Origin: an uncultured bacterium
GTDB lineage: Bacteria > Planctomycetota > Phycisphaerae > Phycisphaerales > SM1A02
Assembly: GCA_903891095.1 (NCBI GenBank)
Contig: CAITDI010000061.1
Span: 1 to 64,000 of the forward strand
Length of the DNA: 64,000 nucleotides
Direction: 5' to 3'
Part shown: positions 46,092 through 56,187 of the stretch, piece by piece
Position numbering within the stretch: position 1 is the stretch's first letter
How the letters are laid out: every line of letters starts with the position of its first letter
Made by a program: the position numbers and the translations under genes
Notes under the pieces: generated by a model
Told to the model about the DNA's origin: nothing
Databases searched by the model: none
Seen by the model: the letters and a program-made list of their open reading frames with translations, nothing else

Positions 46092-49000
46092 ATGAGTTCC
46101 CCGGACCCGTCCGCGCCGACCGCATCAGCCTCCGACCGCAACGCGGCGATTGCTGCCTTGCGCGCGGAGGGCAAGGGCGACGCCGCGCTCGGCATCGAGC
46201 GGAGCGCGGGCGGAATGCTCCAAGCGATGGTCGCGCGGCAGCGTGCGTTCGAGGAGGTCGCCGCCGACGTCAAGGGCAAGCGCGATCGCGCGCGGATCGC
46301 GCATGACCGCAACCTCGCGATCATCCGAACCAAGCGCACGAACGACACCACCGCTGCGCACGATGCGCGCACCAATGCCATCGAGACCGCGGAGTCCGAT
46401 TTCGCAACCCGCGACCAGCTCGCGACCGAGACGCTCAAGCAGAAGACCGACGAACTCACCGCACAGCACGAGGAGGAACTCGCGCGCCTCAAGGGCAAGC
46501 TCGAGGAGAACATCCTCATGGCCGAGGCCTGGCGCGAGGCCGGCGAGGAGAGCGAGCGCAAGCGCACCAAGGAAACCATCGACCGCCTCGCCAAGCAGCT
46601 GGTCGAGGCGGGCGAGCTCGAGTCGCGTGCGCGTGCGTACCTCAAGGGTTGCAGGCTGGCGATTCCGCGCATCACCGCGCAGGAAACCTCTGGCGAAGGC
46701 ACGGCGGCGCCGCGGCCCGCCGAGCAGGAGATCGCGGAGCGCCTCGCGCGCGCGAGCGAGCACCTCGAGGTGATCCTGCAGACGCGCGCGGCGCGCTTGC
46801 TTTCGGGCGCGGCGCCGTTTGTGCTCGGCGCGGCGCTGATCGTTGGCGCGGCGGTGATCGGCGGCGCGACGACGAACTTCAACAAGGCCGCGTGGCAGCT
46901 GCGCGCGATGTACTCGGCGGGCGGCGCGCTCGTCGTGGTGGTGATCACGGTGCTCGTGCTGCGCGCGATCGCGGCAGGCGCGATGCGCAGCGTGTGGACG
47001 CCGTTCCAGGCTGATCTCGCGGCGATCCGCGGTGCGAAGGAACGCGCGGAACGCGAAGGAGCCGCGCAGCGCGAGGCGACGCTCGCCAAACTGCTCGCGA
47101 AGGAACAGGCGGAGGAAGCCGACGCGCACGCGAAGTACGACGCGCCGATCGCGGAGATTCCGCGTGCGCTCGAGCGGCGCACCAAGCGCGCGCGCGACGC
47201 GGCCGAGGCCGAGCAGTCGGCGGCGCGCGCGGAGCGCAAGGCGCGGCTCGCCGCGGCGGACAACGCGCTCGCCGATCGCCTGGATGCGATCGATGAAGCG
47301 GCGCAGGACGGGGAACGCGCGGAGATCGCGCGCGCGGAGAACGAGCGCGCCGACATCGCGACCGAGGAGCGCAACCGCCTCGCCGAGTCGAAGCGCAACT
47401 GGCTCGACCGCGCGACCGCGTGCCGCGACCAGCTCGCGGCGGCTGAACGCGAGGACCCCATGCTGCACCCGGCGTGGAACACGATGACCGCGGAGCGTTG
47501 CATCGCGCCCGCACGCGCGCCGTGGTTCCGCTTTGGGTCGCTCACGCTCGATCCGCGCAAGCATCCGGGCGGCTTGCCGAGCGAGCCCGATCTCCATGTC
47601 GAGATGCCGGAGCGCTTCGACGTGCCCGCAGCGCTTGGCTTCCCGGGCCGCGGCAACCTCGTGTTCGAGACCACGCCGCAGACGCGCGTGCACGCGCTAC
47701 GCGCCGTGCAGTCGCTGATCGGCCGCATCCTCGTGTCGATTCCGCCGTCGAAGGTGCGGTTCACGTTCGTCGATCCGGTCGCGCTCGGCGAGAGCTTTGC
47801 GGCGTTCATGCATCTTGGCGACGAGTTCGAGCTGCTCGTCGGCGAACGCATCTGGACCGACCCGCGCGCGATCGAGCAGCGGCTGGTCGACATCTCCGAG
47901 CACATGGAGACGGTGATCCAGAAGTACCTGCGCAACGAGTTCGAGGACATCGACGCGTACAACGACGCCGCGGGCGAGATCGCGGAGCCGTATCGATTCC
48001 TGGTGTGCGCGGATTTTCCCGCGAATTTCAGCGAGCAGGCTGCGGCGCGCATGGTGTCGATCCTGCGCGCGGGCCAGCGTTGCGGCGTGCATGTGATCCT
48101 GCTGCGCGACCAGAAGTCGCCGCTGCCTGACGGCGTGCGCGCCGACGAGATCGCCGAGAGCTGCATCGTCGTGCGCCCGAACGACAAGGATGGCGGGCAG
48201 TTCCGCATCGCCAACGGCCCGCTTGCCGCGCTGCCGCTGTCGCTCGATGCGCCGCTGCCGGACGACAAGCTGATCCCGCTGCTCACGACCATCGGCCGCG
48301 CCGCGAAGAGCGCATCGCGCGTCGAAGTGCCGTTCGACGCGATCGCGCCGAAGCCGGACACGTTCTGGTCGCTGTCGAGCGCGAAGGGCCTGCGGGTCCC
48401 CGTCGGCCGCGCGGGCGCGACGCGCCTGCAGCAGTTCGCGCTCGGCGAGGGCACAAGCCAGCACGCGCTGATCGCAGGCAAGACGGGCTCGGGTAAGTCG
48501 ACGCTGCTCCACGCGATCATCACGGGGCTCGCGACCTGGTATTCGCCTGATGAAGTCGAGCTCTGGCTCGTCGACTTCAAGAAGGGCGTCGAGTTCAAGA
48601 CCTACGCGGAGAATGGCCTCCCGCACGCGCGCGCGGTCGCGATCGAGTCGGACCGCGAGTTCGGACTGAGCGTGCTCGAAGGCCTCGATGCGGAGCTTTC
48701 ACGGCGCGGCGAGCTGTTCCGCGACGCGGGCGTGCAGGACATCGCGAGTTTCCGCAAGGCGCGGCCGGACGTGCGCATGCCGCGCGTGCTGCTGGTGATC
48801 GACGAGTTCCAGGAGTTCTTCCTCGACGACGACCGCGTGGCGCAGGGCGCGTCGATGCTGCTCGACCGGCTGGTGCGCCAGGGCCGTGCGTTCGGCATGC
48901 ATGCGCTGCTCGGCTCGCAGACGCTCGGCGGCGCGTACTCGCTCGCGCGCAGCACGATGGGCCAGATGGGCGTGCGCATCGCGCTGCAGTGCAACGAGGC

Positions 49001-49994
49001 GGATTCGCAGCTGATTCTGTCCGACGAGAACCTCGCGGCGCGCCTGCTCTCCCGACCAGGCGAAGCGATCTACAACGACGCAGGCGGACGCGTCGAGGGC
49101 AACTCGCCATTCCAGGTGGCGTTCCTCCCCGACGAGAAGCGCGACACGTGGCTCGGCGAAACGGCGCGTCGCTCGAAGGGCGTGTACGACGCGCTTCCGC
49201 GCATCGTGTTCGAGGGCGACGCGCGTGCGCCGATGAAGCTGCATCCCAAGAACCGCGGTGGAATCGCTGCGGATCCGCGCGGAAACGTGCGCCTCTGGCT
49301 CGGCGAGGCCGTCGCGATCAAGGATCCGACGTGCGCGAAGCTCGCGCGCGCGGCCGGCGCGAACGTCGCTGCGATCAGCCCGCGCGACGACCAGGCGGTG
49401 TCGACGACGGCGGCGTTCCTGCTGTCGCTCGCGAAGGAAGCGCCCAACGCGACGATCGACGTGTTCGACGGAACCCCTGCCGATGCGCCTGAATTCGGCG
49501 TGCTCGAGCGCGTGGTGCGCGAGAACGGCATCAACGCGTCGTTCACGCCCTACCGCGAGATCGACGCGAAGCTCGTCGAGATCGCCGAGGACGTGACCAA
49601 GCGCGCGGACGATCCGACGCAGTCGCGGCGGTTCCTCGTCGTGCACCAGCTGCAGCGGTATCGCTCGCTGCGCCGCAACGAGGACGACTTCAGCTTCGGC
49701 GGCAGCGGCGATGCGCCACCGTCCCCCGACAAGCTGCTCGCGGGCATCGTGCGCGAAGGCCCTGTGTCGGGCGTGCATGTGCTGGTCATGTGCGACACGC
49801 TCGCTTCGCTGCAGCGGTCGTTCGACCGCAACGCGCTGCGCGAGTTCGACTGGAAGGTGCTGTTCCAGATGTCGCCGTCGGACTCGAGCACGCTGATCGA
49901 TTCGCCAGCGGCGAGCCGGCTGGGAACGAACCGCGGGTTGCTGCACTCGGAAGAGCTGGGTCTGCTCGAGAAGTTCCGGCCGTACGTCGTTTGA
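46092..49994 (+). CDS. FtsK/SpoIIIE (EccC-like) multidomain ATPase
   Basis: 1300 residues. Residues 50-215 and 310-450 are long charged coiled coils, separated by two transmembrane helices (about 236-260 and 273-297). From about 470 there are three FtsK-like modules. The first (NLVFETTPQTRVHALRAV) lacks a P-loop. The second has Walker A GKTGSGKST (796-804) and Walker B VLLVIDEF (Asp904). The third (NVAAISPRDDQAVSTTA; FLVVHQLQRY) has lost both motifs. The three-module layout recalls EccC/YukBA of type VII secretion and the FtsK/HerA translocases. It stands alone, without WXG100 or other T7SS genes, so a pore or DNA/protein pump role is inferred. Confidence 0.85.
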   Translation: MSSPDPSAPTASASDRNAAIAALRAEGKGDAALGIERSAGGMLQAMVARQRAFEEVAADVKGKRDRARIAHDRNLAIIRTKRTNDTTAAHDARTNAIETAESDFATRDQLATETLKQKTDELTAQHEEELARLKGKLEENILMAEAWREAGEESERKRTKETIDRLAKQLVEAGELESRARAYLKGCRLAIPRITAQETSGEGTAAPRPAEQEIAERLARASEHLEVILQTRAARLLSGAAPFVLGAALIVGAAVIGGATTNFNKAAWQLRAMYSAGGALVVVVITVLVLRAIAAGAMRSVWTPFQADLAAIRGAKERAEREGAAQREATLAKLLAKEQAEEADAHAKYDAPIAEIPRALERRTKRARDAAEAEQSAARAERKARLAAADNALADRLDAIDEAAQDGERAEIARAENERADIATEERNRLAESKRNWLDRATACRDQLAAAEREDPMLHPAWNTMTAERCIAPARAPWFRFGSLTLDPRKHPGGLPSEPDLHVEMPERFDVPAALGFPGRGNLVFETTPQTRVHALRAVQSLIGRILVSIPPSKVRFTFVDPVALGESFAAFMHLGDEFELLVGERIWTDPRAIEQRLVDISEHMETVIQKYLRNEFEDIDAYNDAAGEIAEPYRFLVCADFPANFSEQAAARMVSILRAGQRCGVHVILLRDQKSPLPDGVRADEIAESCIVVRPNDKDGGQFRIANGPLAALPLSLDAPLPDDKLIPLLTTIGRAAKSASRVEVPFDAIAPKPDTFWSLSSAKGLRVPVGRAGATRLQQFALGEGTSQHALIAGKTGSGKSTLLHAIITGLATWYSPDEVELWLVDFKKGVEFKTYAENGLPHARAVAIESDREFGLSVLEGLDAELSRRGELFRDAGVQDIASFRKARPDVRMPRVLLVIDEFQEFFLDDDRVAQGASMLLDRLVRQGRAFGMHALLGSQTLGGAYSLARSTMGQMGVRIALQCNEADSQLILSDENLAARLLSRPGEAIYNDAGGRVEGNSPFQVAFLPDEKRDTWLGETARRSKGVYDALPRIVFEGDARAPMKLHPKNRGGIAADPRGNVRLWLGEAVAIKDPTCAKLARAAGANVAAISPRDDQAVSTTAAFLLSLAKEAPNATIDVFDGTPADAPEFGVLERVVRENGINASFTPYREIDAKLVEIAEDVTKRADDPTQSRRFLVVHQLQRYRSLRRNEDDFSFGGSGDAPPSPDKLLAGIVREGPVSGVHVLVMCDTLASLQRSFDRNALREFDWKVLFQMSPSDSSTLIDSPAASRLGTNRGLLHSEELGLLEKFRPYVV

Positions 49995-50064: not shown

Positions 50065-53000
50065 TCAACCGTCGAGCAACTGCTCGAGGCGACGCTCCGT
50101 TGCCGGGAACGCGCGCGGGAGTTTGGGCGCGTAGCGGCTGATCTCGATCTCCTCGAACATCCGCTCGATGGAGACGAGCTGCTCGATGGAACGCGAGCGT
50201 TCGGCGCGCGCTTCGGCGACGCGTGCGCGCAGCGGCGCGAGTTCATCGTCGATGGCGCGGTCGCGCGCAGGACCGATCTCGCGCAGCCGCTCGAGTCGAC
50301 CAACGAGCATCGACACCAGCCGCAACCGCTGCGCGAGCTCCTCGCGGCTGCACGCCGCGAGCGTATCGAGCGAATCGAAGCCGACGACTTCCTCGAGGCG
50401 AGCCGACACGCGTGCGCGCGGCTCGCCGTTGGCGTCAGGCTTGACATTGCGCGTGCGGTCGATGACCTCGGACGCCGCCGCGAGAATCGCGTGCACCGTG
50501 CGCACGACCCACGACACGCGGTCGTGCGTCTCGCGCCCGGCGAGACGCTGCGCGTCGATGAACTCCTTCGCGCAACGCGGCGCACGCGGTAGCTCCGCGA
50601 TCACCTGTGCAGCCACGGCGCGCGCGGTGAACAGCACGCCGTCGGTCTCGCCGAATCGCACCAATGACGCAAGAAACGCCTCGCACAGCGGGTCGTACGC
50701 AAGGTGATGCTCGACGACCTCGCGCTGGTCGCGCGCGAGGAAGAGCCCCACCGCCGCAGCCTGCGCGGCCTTGGCGGCGCGCGGAGCGTCGAACACGCGA
50801 AGCGCCACGCGGCGCTCCTCGCGCGCGCGGCCGCCTTCGACCGAAAGCGCTGGATAGCCCGTGAGCCCGATGCCGGCGCGCACATAGGCGAGCGTCTCGG
50901 GGATCGCGTCGTCGGGCACGGCGTCGACCTTGTCGCGCTCGAGCAGCGCCACGGGATCGCGCGCGCGATCGACCGACGCGCGCAGCCGGTCGCGCGCGAC
51001 GCCGGCGAACTTCGCGCGCAACGCCGCGAGATCGCGCCCTTCGCCGAGCGTCTTGCCGTCGGCGTCGACGACCTCGAAGCGCATCGACAGATGCGGCGCC
51101 AGCATCTCCTCGCGGAAATCGCCCGGCTCGACCGCCATCTGCGCGAGCGCCGAGAGATGCCGCGCGAGCTTGGCCTTGAGCGAGCCCTTGCCGAACTCGA
51201 GCGACTCGACCGCGCCTTGCACGACCTCCTCGATCGGGAACAGGCGCACGCGCAGATGCTTGGGCAGCGAGCGCACGAGGGCCTCGACCTTCTCGGCGAG
51301 CAGCCCAGGGACCATCCACTCGAACGACGCGGGATCGAGCAGCGCGAGCGCCTCGACAGGCACGCGCGCGGTCACGCCGTCGTCGGCATGGGCGGGATCG
51401 TGCGAGTAGTCGAGCGGAAGCCGCAGCGCGTCGACGCTGATCTGGCGCGGGAAATCCAGCACATCGACGCGCATGGCGCCGTCGCGCAGGAGGTCGTCGT
51501 CGGTCATCACGAGGAGCGTGGGATTCACCGCCTCGGCGGTGCGGCGCCAGCGTTCGAACGACGGCGTCGAGTGCACGTCCTTGGGAACGCGCTCGTCGTA
51601 GAACGCGAACGCCGCCTCCTCCTCGAGAAGCAGGCCACTGCGACGACCGCGTTCTTCCTCGCGCTCGAGTTCCTCGCGGAGCGCGCGGTTCTCGGCGAGG
51701 AACGATCCCTCCGTGCGCGCGCGATACGAGACGAGACCCTCCTGGATGAACACGTGGCGCGCGCTCACCGGATCGATGGGTCCCCAGGGCACGCGCTTCT
51801 TGGGCACGATGACGAGCTCGCCGAAACTCGTGCGTTCCCACGCCGCGACCTGCCCGCTTTCATCGACGAAATGCGGCTCGAACTGCGTGCGCGTGCAGAG
51901 ATGCGGCGCGACGCGCACGATCCACTCGGGCTGCACGCGCGCGCAGATGCGCGCGAAGCGCTTGGTGGTCTCGACGATCTCGACCGCGACGATCCAGTTG
52001 GGCGTGCGCCGCGCGAGCGTGCTCGACGGATGCAACGAGAAGAGCGCGCCGCTCGGACCGCGGTACTCGCCCTTGGGATCGCCCTTGCCGTCGGCCTTGC
52101 CCTCGGCCTTCGCGCCGACATGCGATGCGAACCCCGCGAGCACCGCGCGGTGGAACGCGCCCTGGTCCGTCTCGGCCGACGGCTCGCCGACCTTGATCTC
52201 GAAGTGTTCGACGAACAGCTCGCGCAGCTGCGACACCGTGTCGCCCCACTCGCGCATGCGCTGGTGCGAGAGGTAGTTCTTCTCGCACCACTTGCGGCGC
52301 GCGCTCGAGCCGAGCTCCTTGCCGGACTCGTCCTTGAGCTCGCGCCGCCACACCGCCCACAGCCGAAGGAACGACACGAAGTCGCTCATCGGATCGCGAA
52401 AGCGCGCGTGCGCGAGATCGGCTGCGTCGCGCTTCTCCTGCGGGCGGACGCGCGGATCCTGCACCGCGAGCGCCGCTGCGACGACGAGCGCGTCGTTGGT
52501 GCAGCGCTCGTCGATCGACGCGAGCAGCATGCGCGAAAGCCGCGGATCGAGCGGCAGCAGGCTCATCGCGCGGCCCATCTTGGTGAGCTTGCCTTCGGCG
52601 GTGGATGCGCCGAGCTCGACGAGCGTCGCGCGGCCGTCGGCGAGCAGGCGCGCCGACGGTGGATCGACGAACGGGAAATCCTCGGCCTTTCCCAGCGAAA
52701 GCGCCTCCATCTGCAGGATCACGCTCGCGAGGTTCGTGCGAAGGATCTCAGGCTGCGTAAACGGCGGACGGTGGTTGAAGTCGATCTCGTCGTAGAGCCG
52801 GATCGCGATGCCCGGGCCGAGTCGACCGGCGCGGCCCGCACGCTGGCGCGCGCTCGCTTGCGAGATCGCCTCGACGGGCAGCCGCTGCACGCGCGACTTG
52901 GCGCTGTAGCGGAGCAGTCGCGCGAAGCCCGGATCGATCACCGCGTGGATGCGCGGAACGGTGAGCGAGGTCTCGGCGACGTTCGTCGCGAGCACGATGC

Positions 53001-54072
53001 GGCGCTTGGGTCCCGGCGCGAAGATGCGCTCCTGCTCCTCGAGCCCCTGGCGCGCGAAGAGCGGAAGGATCTCGGTTTCCCGCGCCGCAGCGGTGCCCGC
53101 CTCGCCCTTCTCGCGCGACTTGAGATGGCCCGCGAGGTACGCCTCGCTCTCGCGGATCTCACGCTCGCCCGAGTGAAACACCAGGATGTCGGGCAGGATC
53201 TTGCGCTCCGCGAACGATGCGTCGATCTCGTCGACCGCGCTCGCGAGGAGTTCGAGCATGCGCGGGTCTTCTTCGTCGAGACCGCCGACTTCGGGCGGGC
53301 GGTAGCGGATGTCGATCGGATGCGCGCGACCGGCGATCTCGATCACGGGGCATCCGCCGAAATGCGTGGAAAGCCGCTCGACATCGATGGTCGCGCTGGT
53401 GAGGATCAGCTTGAGATCAGGCCGCCGCGACAGCAAGCGCCGCAGGTAGCCGAGCAGGAAGTCGATGTTGAGGCTGCGCTCGTGCGCCTCGTCGACGATG
53501 ATCGTGTCGTACTCGTCGAGGCGAGAATCGCCGCGGGTTTCGGCGAGCAGCATGCCGTCGGTGAGCACCTTGACCAGCGTGTCGCGGCCCGACTCGTCGC
53601 CAAAGCGCACCTTGACGCCGACCACGCCGCCGAGCTTGACGCCGAGTTCGTCGGCCACGCGCCGCGCGACGCTGCGTGCGGCGATGCGCCGTGGCTGCGT
53701 GTGCGCGATGCGGCCAGCGACGCCGCGGCCGAGCTCGAGGCACAACTTCGGAAGTTGCGTGCTCTTGCCCGAGCCCGTCTCGCCGGCGACGACGACGACT
53801 TGGTTCTCGATGATCGCCTTGCGGAGCTCGTCGAGCGCGGCGGTGACGGGGAGCTCAGGCGGGTAGGTGACCGCAGGAACGAGCCCCGCGCGGCGCGTGC
53901 GTTCGGCCGCCGATCGCTCGATCGCCTCCTCGACGGCGCGGATCGCGCGTTCGTCGGGCGTGCCACGGTCCCGAAACCGCTTCTCGAGCCCGCCGATGCG
54001 CGCGCGGAGGTCGCGGCGGTCGGCTGGCAGCGCGGAATCGAGTTTCGAAAGCAGTTCGCGGAGCGGAAGCAC
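50065..54072 (-). CDS. hrpA: ATP-dependent RNA helicase HrpA
   Basis: 1335 residues. DEAH-box superfamily 2 core: Walker A GETGSGKST (97-105), Q-P-R-R-I-A-A-R-S motif Ia, DEAH at 194-197 (IIVDEAHERS), SAT motif III (LILTSATID) and motif VI (QRAGRAGR). The HA2/OB region and a long C-terminal HrpA-specific domain (DUF3418-like) follow, giving the typical bacterial HrpA length. HrpA is an RNA helicase that rescues stalled ribosomes or handles mRNA structure. Start ATG 54070-54072. It is convergent with the FtsK-like gene, with a 70-bp gap. Confidence 0.96.
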   Translation of the reverse strand: MLPLRELLSKLDSALPADRRDLRARIGGLEKRFRDRGTPDERAIRAVEEAIERSAAERTRRAGLVPAVTYPPELPVTAALDELRKAIIENQVVVVAGETGSGKSTQLPKLCLELGRGVAGRIAHTQPRRIAARSVARRVADELGVKLGGVVGVKVRFGDESGRDTLVKVLTDGMLLAETRGDSRLDEYDTIIVDEAHERSLNIDFLLGYLRRLLSRRPDLKLILTSATIDVERLSTHFGGCPVIEIAGRAHPIDIRYRPPEVGGLDEEDPRMLELLASAVDEIDASFAERKILPDILVFHSGEREIRESEAYLAGHLKSREKGEAGTAAARETEILPLFARQGLEEQERIFAPGPKRRIVLATNVAETSLTVPRIHAVIDPGFARLLRYSAKSRVQRLPVEAISQASARQRAGRAGRLGPGIAIRLYDEIDFNHRPPFTQPEILRTNLASVILQMEALSLGKAEDFPFVDPPSARLLADGRATLVELGASTAEGKLTKMGRAMSLLPLDPRLSRMLLASIDERCTNDALVVAAALAVQDPRVRPQEKRDAADLAHARFRDPMSDFVSFLRLWAVWRRELKDESGKELGSSARRKWCEKNYLSHQRMREWGDTVSQLRELFVEHFEIKVGEPSAETDQGAFHRAVLAGFASHVGAKAEGKADGKGDPKGEYRGPSGALFSLHPSSTLARRTPNWIVAVEIVETTKRFARICARVQPEWIVRVAPHLCTRTQFEPHFVDESGQVAAWERTSFGELVIVPKKRVPWGPIDPVSARHVFIQEGLVSYRARTEGSFLAENRALREELEREEERGRRSGLLLEEEAAFAFYDERVPKDVHSTPSFERWRRTAEAVNPTLLVMTDDDLLRDGAMRVDVLDFPRQISVDALRLPLDYSHDPAHADDGVTARVPVEALALLDPASFEWMVPGLLAEKVEALVRSLPKHLRVRLFPIEEVVQGAVESLEFGKGSLKAKLARHLSALAQMAVEPGDFREEMLAPHLSMRFEVVDADGKTLGEGRDLAALRAKFAGVARDRLRASVDRARDPVALLERDKVDAVPDDAIPETLAYVRAGIGLTGYPALSVEGGRAREERRVALRVFDAPRAAKAAQAAAVGLFLARDQREVVEHHLAYDPLCEAFLASLVRFGETDGVLFTARAVAAQVIAELPRAPRCAKEFIDAQRLAGRETHDRVSWVVRTVHAILAAASEVIDRTRNVKPDANGEPRARVSARLEEVVGFDSLDTLAACSREELAQRLRLVSMLVGRLERLREIGPARDRAIDDELAPLRARVAEARAERSRSIEQLVSIERMFEEIEISRYAPKLPRAFPATERRLEQLLDG

Positions 54073-54256: not shown

Positions 54257-54324
54257 CTTGTCGGGACGAGATCGAAAGAGACCCAGTGACCCAAGAGGCT
54301 CAAGAGATTCACACGGGCAGACCT

Positions 54325-56187
54325 ATGCGACTCCGCACCCCCATCGCCGCGCTCTCGACCGCCGTTCTGCTCCTCGCGAGCAGCGCGCTGCTGGTCGCCT
54401 GCGGCGAGGTCCTCGAGAAGGTCCCCGCCCGCCCCAAGCAGGACCGTGCGGACCCTGCGAACTTCACGCTCGACGTCGATCCGATGATGCGCGGCACCGT
54501 CGCGAGCGAGAGCGCCGTGCGCGGCCTCGACCCCGTGGTGGTCCGTGGCTACGGGCTCGTCGTCGGTCTCGCCGGCACGGGCGGTCGCCTGATGCCCGCC
54601 GAAGTCCGCGCAGTAATGATCCAGGAACTCGCGCGCCGCGGCATCGGCAATCCCGCGACCAGCCCCGAAGGCTGGACGCCCGAGAGCGTGCTCAACAGCG
54701 CCGACACCGCGGTCGTGATCGTCGAGGGCGTCGTTCCGCCCGCGGCAACCAAGGACACCAAGTTCGACCTGCGCGTGACCGCGCTGCCGGGCTCCGATGT
54801 CACGAGCCTCGAGGGCGGTCGCCTCTACACGACGGATCTCCGCCCCGGGCCGCTGCTGATCGGCTCCAAGCAGGCGCAGATCATCGCCGAAGGCAAGGGC
54901 AACATCTTCATCAATCCGTTCGTCGATCCGAAGGCCACGCGCGGCGACGCCGTCAATCGGCTCGTCGGACGCGTGCTCGACGGCGGCAAGGTCGGAAAGG
55001 ATCTTCCGCTCAAGCTCGTGCTCGCGACGTCGAGCCACACGCGTTCGCGCACGATCCAGTCGTCGATCAACTCGATCTTCCCGCGCGAACAGCGGCAGAA
55101 GAGCGACACCGCGCGCGGCGAGAACGCCGACTCGATCGAGCTCTGCATCCCGCCGTCGTACCACGGCAAGAGCGAGGAGTTCATCCAGCTCGTCCGTCAC
55201 GTGCCGCTCGACATCTCGGCGACCGAGGTCACGGCGCTGGCCGTGCGCAAGGCGCTCATCGCCAATCCCGGCAGCGCGAACGACGCGATGTGGCGCTTCC
55301 GCGCGCTGGGCAAGCGCGTGCTGCCCGTGATCCAGGATCTCTACACCTACACCGAGGAAGACCCGCGGATGGCGGCGCTCGAAGCCGGCGCGGCGCTCGA
55401 TGACGCGCTCGCCGCGGCGCCGCTCGTCGAGATGGCCAAGGCGGGCACGGTCTCCAACCGCGTGCGCGCGATCGGACTGCTGTCCAAGATGGGCTTCAAC
55501 CCCGACATCGACGTGGGCCTGCGCCCCCTGCTCGACGACGCGGAGCCCGATGTGCGCCTCGCGACCTACGACTGCCTCTCCAAGCGCAAGGACCGCACCG
55601 TGCGCCTGTTGGACATCGACGGCCGCTTCGACGTCGCGCTGGTGCCCAGCAAGCTGCCGATGATCTACGTCGCCCAGAGCGGCCGCCCGACCATCGCGAT
55701 CTTTGGCGACGAAACCGCCGTCGAGCGCCCGCTCACCCACTCCGCGTGGGGCAACCGATTCATGGTCAAGGGCGACTCGGGCGACGACCAGATCCAGGTC
55801 TACTACCGGGCGACCGCCGAGGCGCGCCCCGAGATCCAGCTGGTCGATCCGCGGCTTTCCGAGTTCGTGCCGTTCCTCGGTCACAAGATCACCGTCGAGA
55901 AGCCGATCCCCGGCCTCGGCCTGACCTACGGCGAGACGATCGGCGCGGTCCACGGGCTCTGGCGCGCGGGTTACATCAAGGCCGACTTCAAGGCCGAGCA
56001 GGACCGAATCCTCGCCGCGATCCTCCGCAACCAGACCGACGAGGACAAGGTCAACCGCCCCGAGTTCGACAGCGAGCAGCCAGCCAAGCCCGAGGAGCCC
56101 GTGGCTCCGACCAGCGATTTGGCCAACCTCGCACCTCCGCCGCCGGTTGATTCTCCGAGCGCGGGACGCGATACTGTGCCCCGCTGA
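54325..56187 (+). CDS. FlgI-like lipoprotein
   Basis: About 620 residues. A signal peptide ends in lipobox L-V-A-C. Residues 65-270 resemble the FlgI (flagellar P-ring) domain: V-R-G-Y-G-L-V-V-G-L-A-G-T-G matches the family VVGYGLVVGLNGTG, with VILVEG-like VVIVEG and the FDLRVTALPGSDVTSLEGG block. A helical HEAT-like part (about 330-430) and a beta-rich tail follow. No flagellar genes are near, the protein is lipidated and longer than FlgI (about 370), so it is probably not a flagellar P-ring. ATG 54325 was chosen because it gives a proper lipoprotein signal; GTG 54286 is possible. Confidence 0.82.
   Translation: MRLRTPIAALSTAVLLLASSALLVACGEVLEKVPARPKQDRADPANFTLDVDPMMRGTVASESAVRGLDPVVVRGYGLVVGLAGTGGRLMPAEVRAVMIQELARRGIGNPATSPEGWTPESVLNSADTAVVIVEGVVPPAATKDTKFDLRVTALPGSDVTSLEGGRLYTTDLRPGPLLIGSKQAQIIAEGKGNIFINPFVDPKATRGDAVNRLVGRVLDGGKVGKDLPLKLVLATSSHTRSRTIQSSINSIFPREQRQKSDTARGENADSIELCIPPSYHGKSEEFIQLVRHVPLDISATEVTALAVRKALIANPGSANDAMWRFRALGKRVLPVIQDLYTYTEEDPRMAALEAGAALDDALAAAPLVEMAKAGTVSNRVRAIGLLSKMGFNPDIDVGLRPLLDDAEPDVRLATYDCLSKRKDRTVRLLDIDGRFDVALVPSKLPMIYVAQSGRPTIAIFGDETAVERPLTHSAWGNRFMVKGDSGDDQIQVYYRATAEARPEIQLVDPRLSEFVPFLGHKITVEKPIPGLGLTYGETIGAVHGLWRAGYIKADFKAEQDRILAAILRNQTDEDKVNRPEFDSEQPAKPEEPVAPTSDLANLAPPPPVDSPSAGRDTVPR

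Follow-up and report, generated by a model that had tools for sequence, protein, structure and literature searches.

A membrane motor related to EccC, with one intact ATPase module and three small helical partners, as the probable core of a minimal WXG100 export system in Planctomycetota and related bacteria

What does an FtsK/EccC-like membrane motor do in a planctomycete when only one of its three modules keeps a P-loop and no type VII secretion genes lie beside it? The question is raised by an open reading frame of 1300 codons with an ATG start at 46092-49994 (+ strand) in a 64,000-nucleotide stretch of DNA, here called the window, from an uncultured bacterium of the lineage SM1A02 (Phycisphaerales; GenBank assembly GCA_903891095.1, contig CAITDI010000061.1, positions 1 to 64,000). 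A first-pass annotation made from the sequence alone had regarded the gene as a solitary motor and proposed a new translocation or sensing device. The analysis described here indicates that the gene probably specifies the motor, located in the inner membrane, of a minimal export system of the WXG100 (type VII/ESX-like) kind in diderm bacteria of the Planctomycetes-Verrucomicrobia-Chlamydiae (PVC) group, for which we infer the export activity itself. The directly observed features behind this conclusion are the order and degeneracy of the modules, the kinship with EccC and EssC, a conserved operon, a near-perfect co-occurrence of motor and WXG100 gene, and the finding that the window genome contains all three partner genes, A, B and C. 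The motor gene has the following layout.

46092-49994, + strand: EccC-like membrane motor, 1300 amino acids (open reading frame; 93 full-length homologues)
46224-46787, + strand: N-terminal predicted coiled-coil segment, residues 45-232 (from composition)
46806-46862, + strand: predicted transmembrane helix 1, about residues 239-257 (hydropathy)
46929-46985, + strand: predicted transmembrane helix 2, about residues 280-298 (hydropathy)
46992-47456, + strand: second predicted coiled-coil/stalk segment, residues 301-455 (composition)
47499-48341, + strand: module 1, residues 470-750, degenerate (alignment, AlphaFold model, order)
48351-49151, + strand: module 2, residues about 754-1020, the sole intact motor (TIGR03924 match of 754-998 to model positions 410-658)
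48477-48500, + strand: Walker A GKTGSGKS in module 2, residues 796-803 (93/93 homologues)
48789-48806, + strand: Walker B in module 2, residues 900-905, ending in D904-E905; IDEF is 903-906 (93/93 homologues)
49179-49991, + strand: module 3, residues 1030-1300, degenerate, the last module (weak profile match to EccC5 1003-1029; model)

The frame directly antisense to the motor gene is interrupted by stops, and the other long reverse open reading frames opposite it are regarded as shadows cast by a G+C-rich gene, because conservation extends along the whole of the forward product. Segments 45-232 and 301-455, which flank both hydrophobic helices, are rich in Ala, Glu, Arg and Lys and poor in Pro and Gly, a composition that suggests coiled coil. 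Of the earlier description as two membrane helices between coiled coils, the helices were found again, and the coiled coils are predicted from composition. The single P-loop was confirmed: modules 1 and 3 contain neither GK[S/T] nor hhhhD[DE], and the Pfam domain FtsK_SpoIIIE matches over module 2 alone (788-944, E 5e-33). Residues 470-1300 were modelled with AlphaFold (pLDDT 86, pTM 0.70), the kind of structure check that the first-pass annotation had asked for, and the model contains the three successive FtsK-type alpha/beta modules that it had described.

A scan of GTDB genomes together with 60 relatives yielded homologues in Planctomycetota, Verrucomicrobiota and Lentisphaerota, about 1300 amino acids long and with 38-76% identity, of which 93 full-length sequences were aligned. 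Both Walker motifs of module 2 are invariant (93/93 each), and GK[ST] occurs in none of the sequences in module 1 (0/93) or module 3 (0/93), nor does hhhD[DE] occur in either module. Because no member has these motifs in the outer modules, their degeneracy is, as judged from the alignment, an old, fixed and family-wide property; the same counts rule out chance or local decay of the P-loop, and no homologue shows the intact P-loops in all modules that would have contradicted the first-pass annotation. Other motifs of the outer modules stay strongly conserved, for example HMExVIQKYLRNEF in module 1 and, in module 3, LQRFRxLR and EKFRPY; modules 1 and 3 are therefore retained for some role other than hydrolysis. 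Within the family, one record titled Alphaproteobacteria (L080) has a motor that groups among planctomycete sequences and is probably a mislabelled bin, and one genome carries two motor copies (G114:C138 and G114:C126).

The relationship to EccC and EssC appears in sequence and in fold. The top NCBIfam match is EccCa (TIGR03924, 4.8e-36), covering only the middle module; the closest PDB sequences are Thermomonospora curvata EccC (4nh0), EccC5 and YukB of Bacillus subtilis; and a Foldseek search with the 470-1300 model places EccC/EssC structures at ranks 1-8 (best 3.2e-32), ahead of FtsK and TcpA. A viral fold library gave only generic FtsK/packaging ATPases. The EccC-like character proposed earlier, with an active module between degenerate ones, therefore holds, but the degenerate flanks are no novelty: in EccC and EssC, too, D1 is the active domain, and D0/DUF, D2 and D3 are degenerate (PMC11154593). 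Matched by their order and fold, the three modules pair in turn with D0, D1 and D2 of EccC, and D3 is absent. For the outer modules the assignment rests on order and fold because the sequence links are nil for module 1, where sequence proof of an EccC DUF was sought in vain by a profile search of the PDB, and weak for module 3 (profile match to D2 of EccC5, E 0.016). The identification of module 1 as the counterpart of the DUF/D0 further rests on an arginine. In the DUF of EccC5, GEREQVL replaces Walker A and Arg227 forms a bridge to the Asp of Walker B (PMC11154593); in module 1, R532 at the lost P-loop is present in 87/93 sequences, typically within GR, and position 641 is D or N in 90/93.

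The motor shares with EccC of the type VIIa systems (4nh0; EccC5, 7np7) an active D1 that follows a degenerate DUF and precedes a degenerate D2, membrane helices ahead of these modules and a WXG100 partner, whereas it has no D3, carries a long stretch of predicted coiled coil on the N-terminal side of the membrane helices and scores under the NCBIfam cut-off. EssC has a cytosolic N-terminal part with FHA domains, followed by two membrane helices and D0 (PMC10765036). Similar to EssC/YukB of the type VIIb systems, the motor has a cytosolic N-terminal domain, two membrane helices and D0-D1-D2, but with predicted coiled coil in place of the FHA domains and without D3, YukC/EssB or YukD/EsaB.

An FtsK/SpoIIIE-related DNA translocase, acting in chromosome segregation or DNA transfer, would share the motor fold of each module as well as the FtsK_SpoIIIE domain, and the window offers neighbours that would suit it: topA lies directly upstream of the motor gene with a gap of 45 bp, and smc is 6 kb away. 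In the window genus and its close kin, too, the motor gene follows topA. However, the topA adjacency is seen at no more than 12 loci, all of them close to the window genus, and elsewhere the neighbours are genes A, B and C; topA, like the HrpA gene described below, was therefore discarded as a partner. EccC outscores FtsK in sequence and in fold, the FtsK equivalog of NCBIfam reaching only 19.4 of 1566 bits, and Pfam finds no gamma domain in the motor. The window genome has further FtsK-like genes (C28, C43), and two degenerate modules together with WXG100 partner genes fit a DNA pump poorly. We regard this explanation as highly improbable, the least credible of those considered.

The partner genes were found by clustering the open reading frames around 80 motor loci. 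Three genes upstream of the motor gene recur in about 50 of these. The order A-B-C-motor, with the motor last, is seen in 45 of the 65 loci whose upstream sequence reaches at least 1 kb, with short gaps and often stop/start overlaps. Gene A encodes about 90 amino acids and matches the WXG100 family (PF06013) in 16/16 A proteins (best 2.4e-12); across the relatives the match is above cut-off in 35 of 61. Gene C encodes about 70 amino acids with a W-x-D turn like that of A. Pfam alone is weak for C, but the profiles of A and C align over 60 columns with the W-x-D turns matched (hhalign probability 76%, E 2e-5). The A protein resembles known WXG100 proteins in its length of about 90 residues, its central Trp turn and its Pfam score above cut-off; unlike them, the turn is W-x-D, C is just some 70 residues long and a helical-hairpin gene lies between A and C. 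The core of the B protein, some 165 residues, is predicted to consist of two helices of 72 residues each that form a long helical hairpin (pLDDT 93). The co-encoding of a long helical protein with two small WXG100-like proteins recalls the LXG effectors and their Lap partners of type VIIb systems. The resemblance is in gene layout alone: Pfam does not match LXG in B, no toxin domain is recognisable at its C-terminus, and a structure search returned generic helical hairpins, none with E <= 0.001, so its assignment as an LXG protein was abandoned. Some B copies end in an Imm33-like domain (PF24719; L047:8362-9414, L055:2436-3482, L059:8503-9540, L070:8350-9357), and these tails are unexplained, given that there are no toxin genes in the system.

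The motor, which the first-pass annotation had called solitary, is therefore not so: most homologues are encoded in one operon with a hairpin gene and two genes of the WXG100 type. Its statement that the gene adjoins topA with no WXG100 gene nearby is accurate for the window locus itself, and the window genome carries the trio on a separate contig (G000:C46), where B, C and A are consecutive and all on the minus strand:

L133 7014-7685, - strand: B, read on the other contig of the window genome
L133 6799-7017, - strand: C, overlapping B by 4 bp
L133 6419-6691, - strand: A, third in the row B-C-A

A second genome (G004) has the same B-C-A trio about 180 kb away from its motor gene. In a sample of 294 planctomycete genomes, A was found in 53 and the motor in 54; both are present in 53, A never occurs without the motor, and the only motor-only genome is fragmented. 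The corresponding Fisher p of about 5e-58 ignores shared ancestry, and for that reason more weight is given to the tree: A and motor are unlinked in 16 of the 53 genomes, and on the motor tree the state must have switched between linked and unlinked at least four times. In the searched genomes whose motor locus had no A nearby, A lies elsewhere in the genome. No A was found for L106, a locus at a contig end, and the five of the 61 relatives that carry the motor but not A are for the most part incomplete bins.

Several results weigh against an exporter of the type VII kind. The motor misses the cut-offs of TIGR03924 (124.7 of 509 bits) and TIGR03928 (88 of 778 bits), and module 1 alone retrieved no EccC sequence from the PDB. 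It has three modules with the middle one active rather than D0 to D3, and the missing D3 is the domain that in T. curvata EccC binds the WXG100 signal. The partners also deviate: W-x-G is replaced by W-x-D in all 16 A and all 15 C aligned proteins (A still being above the Pfam cut-off), and the YxxxD/E export signal is absent from A, which has an invariant Tyr86-Leu87 with no D or E four residues past the Tyr. Among 25 genomes YukC/EssB was found in none and YukD/EsaB in one, with positive B. subtilis controls for both. The lone YukD-like match (L149; G007:C114:13409-13621) is in a bin with 5% contamination and probably on a foreign contig. Across families no further gene recurs beside the operon in the clustered loci, and we know of no outer-membrane component for the system.

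One alternative is an ordinary type VII secretion system whose further membrane partners (EccB, EccD and EccE, or EsaA-, EssA- and EssB-like proteins) are present but too diverged to detect. EccB gave 0/25 with a control that was silent too, and the searches did not cover EccD, EccE, EsaA or EssA. The YukC and YukD results with their working controls and the lack of an additional recurrent gene speak against it, and it seems improbable to us; none of the examined loci is an ordinary type VII cluster, the setting that according to the first-pass annotation would have refuted its proposal.

The main rival is that the motor together with A, B and C forms an envelope-anchored scaffold or regulator, for example in division or membrane shape, with the WXG100-type hairpins as cytosolic adaptors. 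It agrees with the single WXG100 gene (PF06013) per genome in nearly all relatives and the lack of WXG100-fused toxins among them, for which reasons a polymorphic-toxin exporter was also rejected. A Lentisphaerae bin has a second, more distant WXG100 gene (G340:C428:9268-9513). No channel partners are known, the hosts are diderm with no known outer-membrane exit, and the Imm33-like domain of some B proteins belongs to a family usually found in cytosolic immunity proteins. On the other hand, module 2 is an invariant motor in 93/93 sequences, and the characterised systems combining EccC and WXG100 proteins are exporters (PMC4010439, PMC10765036). A scaffold is thus unlikely, albeit worth serious attention.

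For the export system that we favour, a mechanism may be proposed. The WXG100 hairpin A, the short WXG100-like C and the long hairpin B would assemble in the cytosol into a small complex made up of helices only, serving as cargo or for targeting, which would dock on the C-terminal pseudo-ATPase module 3 as receptor. Docking would release module 2 or assemble it into an ATP-hydrolysing hexamer, with degenerate module 1 as a ring-forming collar under the membrane, and the helical complex would be pushed into the periplasm through a channel lined by the two transmembrane helices. Complex formation, the hexamer, the docking site and the direction and fact of export are all points that we infer. 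In the broad definition, an ESX system comprises an FtsK/SpoIIIE ATPase and one or more WXG100 substrates (PMC4010439); the loci described here contain an EccC/EssC-like ATPase of this type and a partner gene of the WXG100 family, identified by PF06013, operon and co-occurrence. An unusual translocation device, as suggested at the outset, remains the best interpretation, though neither solitary nor novel in its degenerate flanks.

Two other neighbours in the window deserve mention. An HrpA-type helicase with DUF3418 (50065-54072, - strand) is convergent to the motor gene and is conserved at this place chiefly within the window genus and its close kin. At 54286-56187 (+ strand) a 633-amino-acid predicted lipoprotein joins a FlgI P-ring-like domain (PF02119, 2e-21) to HEAT-type repeats; it is under the NCBIfam FlgI cut-off, and no other flagellar gene was recognised beside it.

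The Sutcliffe 2011 survey may already mention planctomycete genes or list parts of the system. ESX systems are on record from Actinobacteria, Firmicutes and part of the Chloroflexi, homologues in other groups being sporadic (PMC4010439, PMC3935865); WXG100 proteins were surveyed as nearly confined to two phyla (PMC3935865), and another survey excludes ESX as absent from diderm bacteria with lipopolysaccharide (PMC4793230). The genes may, tentatively, represent a third branch of type VII-like secretion in two-membraned PVC bacteria, composed of one motor and three small helical proteins without Ecc or Ess/Esa membrane partners, in which the motor alone would be the whole inner-membrane channel. 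If true, the four-gene version, which about 18% of the planctomycete genomes in the sample carry, would rank with the smallest part sets known for WXG100-linked transport. It would make testable, without other membrane subunits, whether an EccC/EssC-type motor alone can form a channel, and it raises the question how WXG100 cargo would deal with a second membrane.
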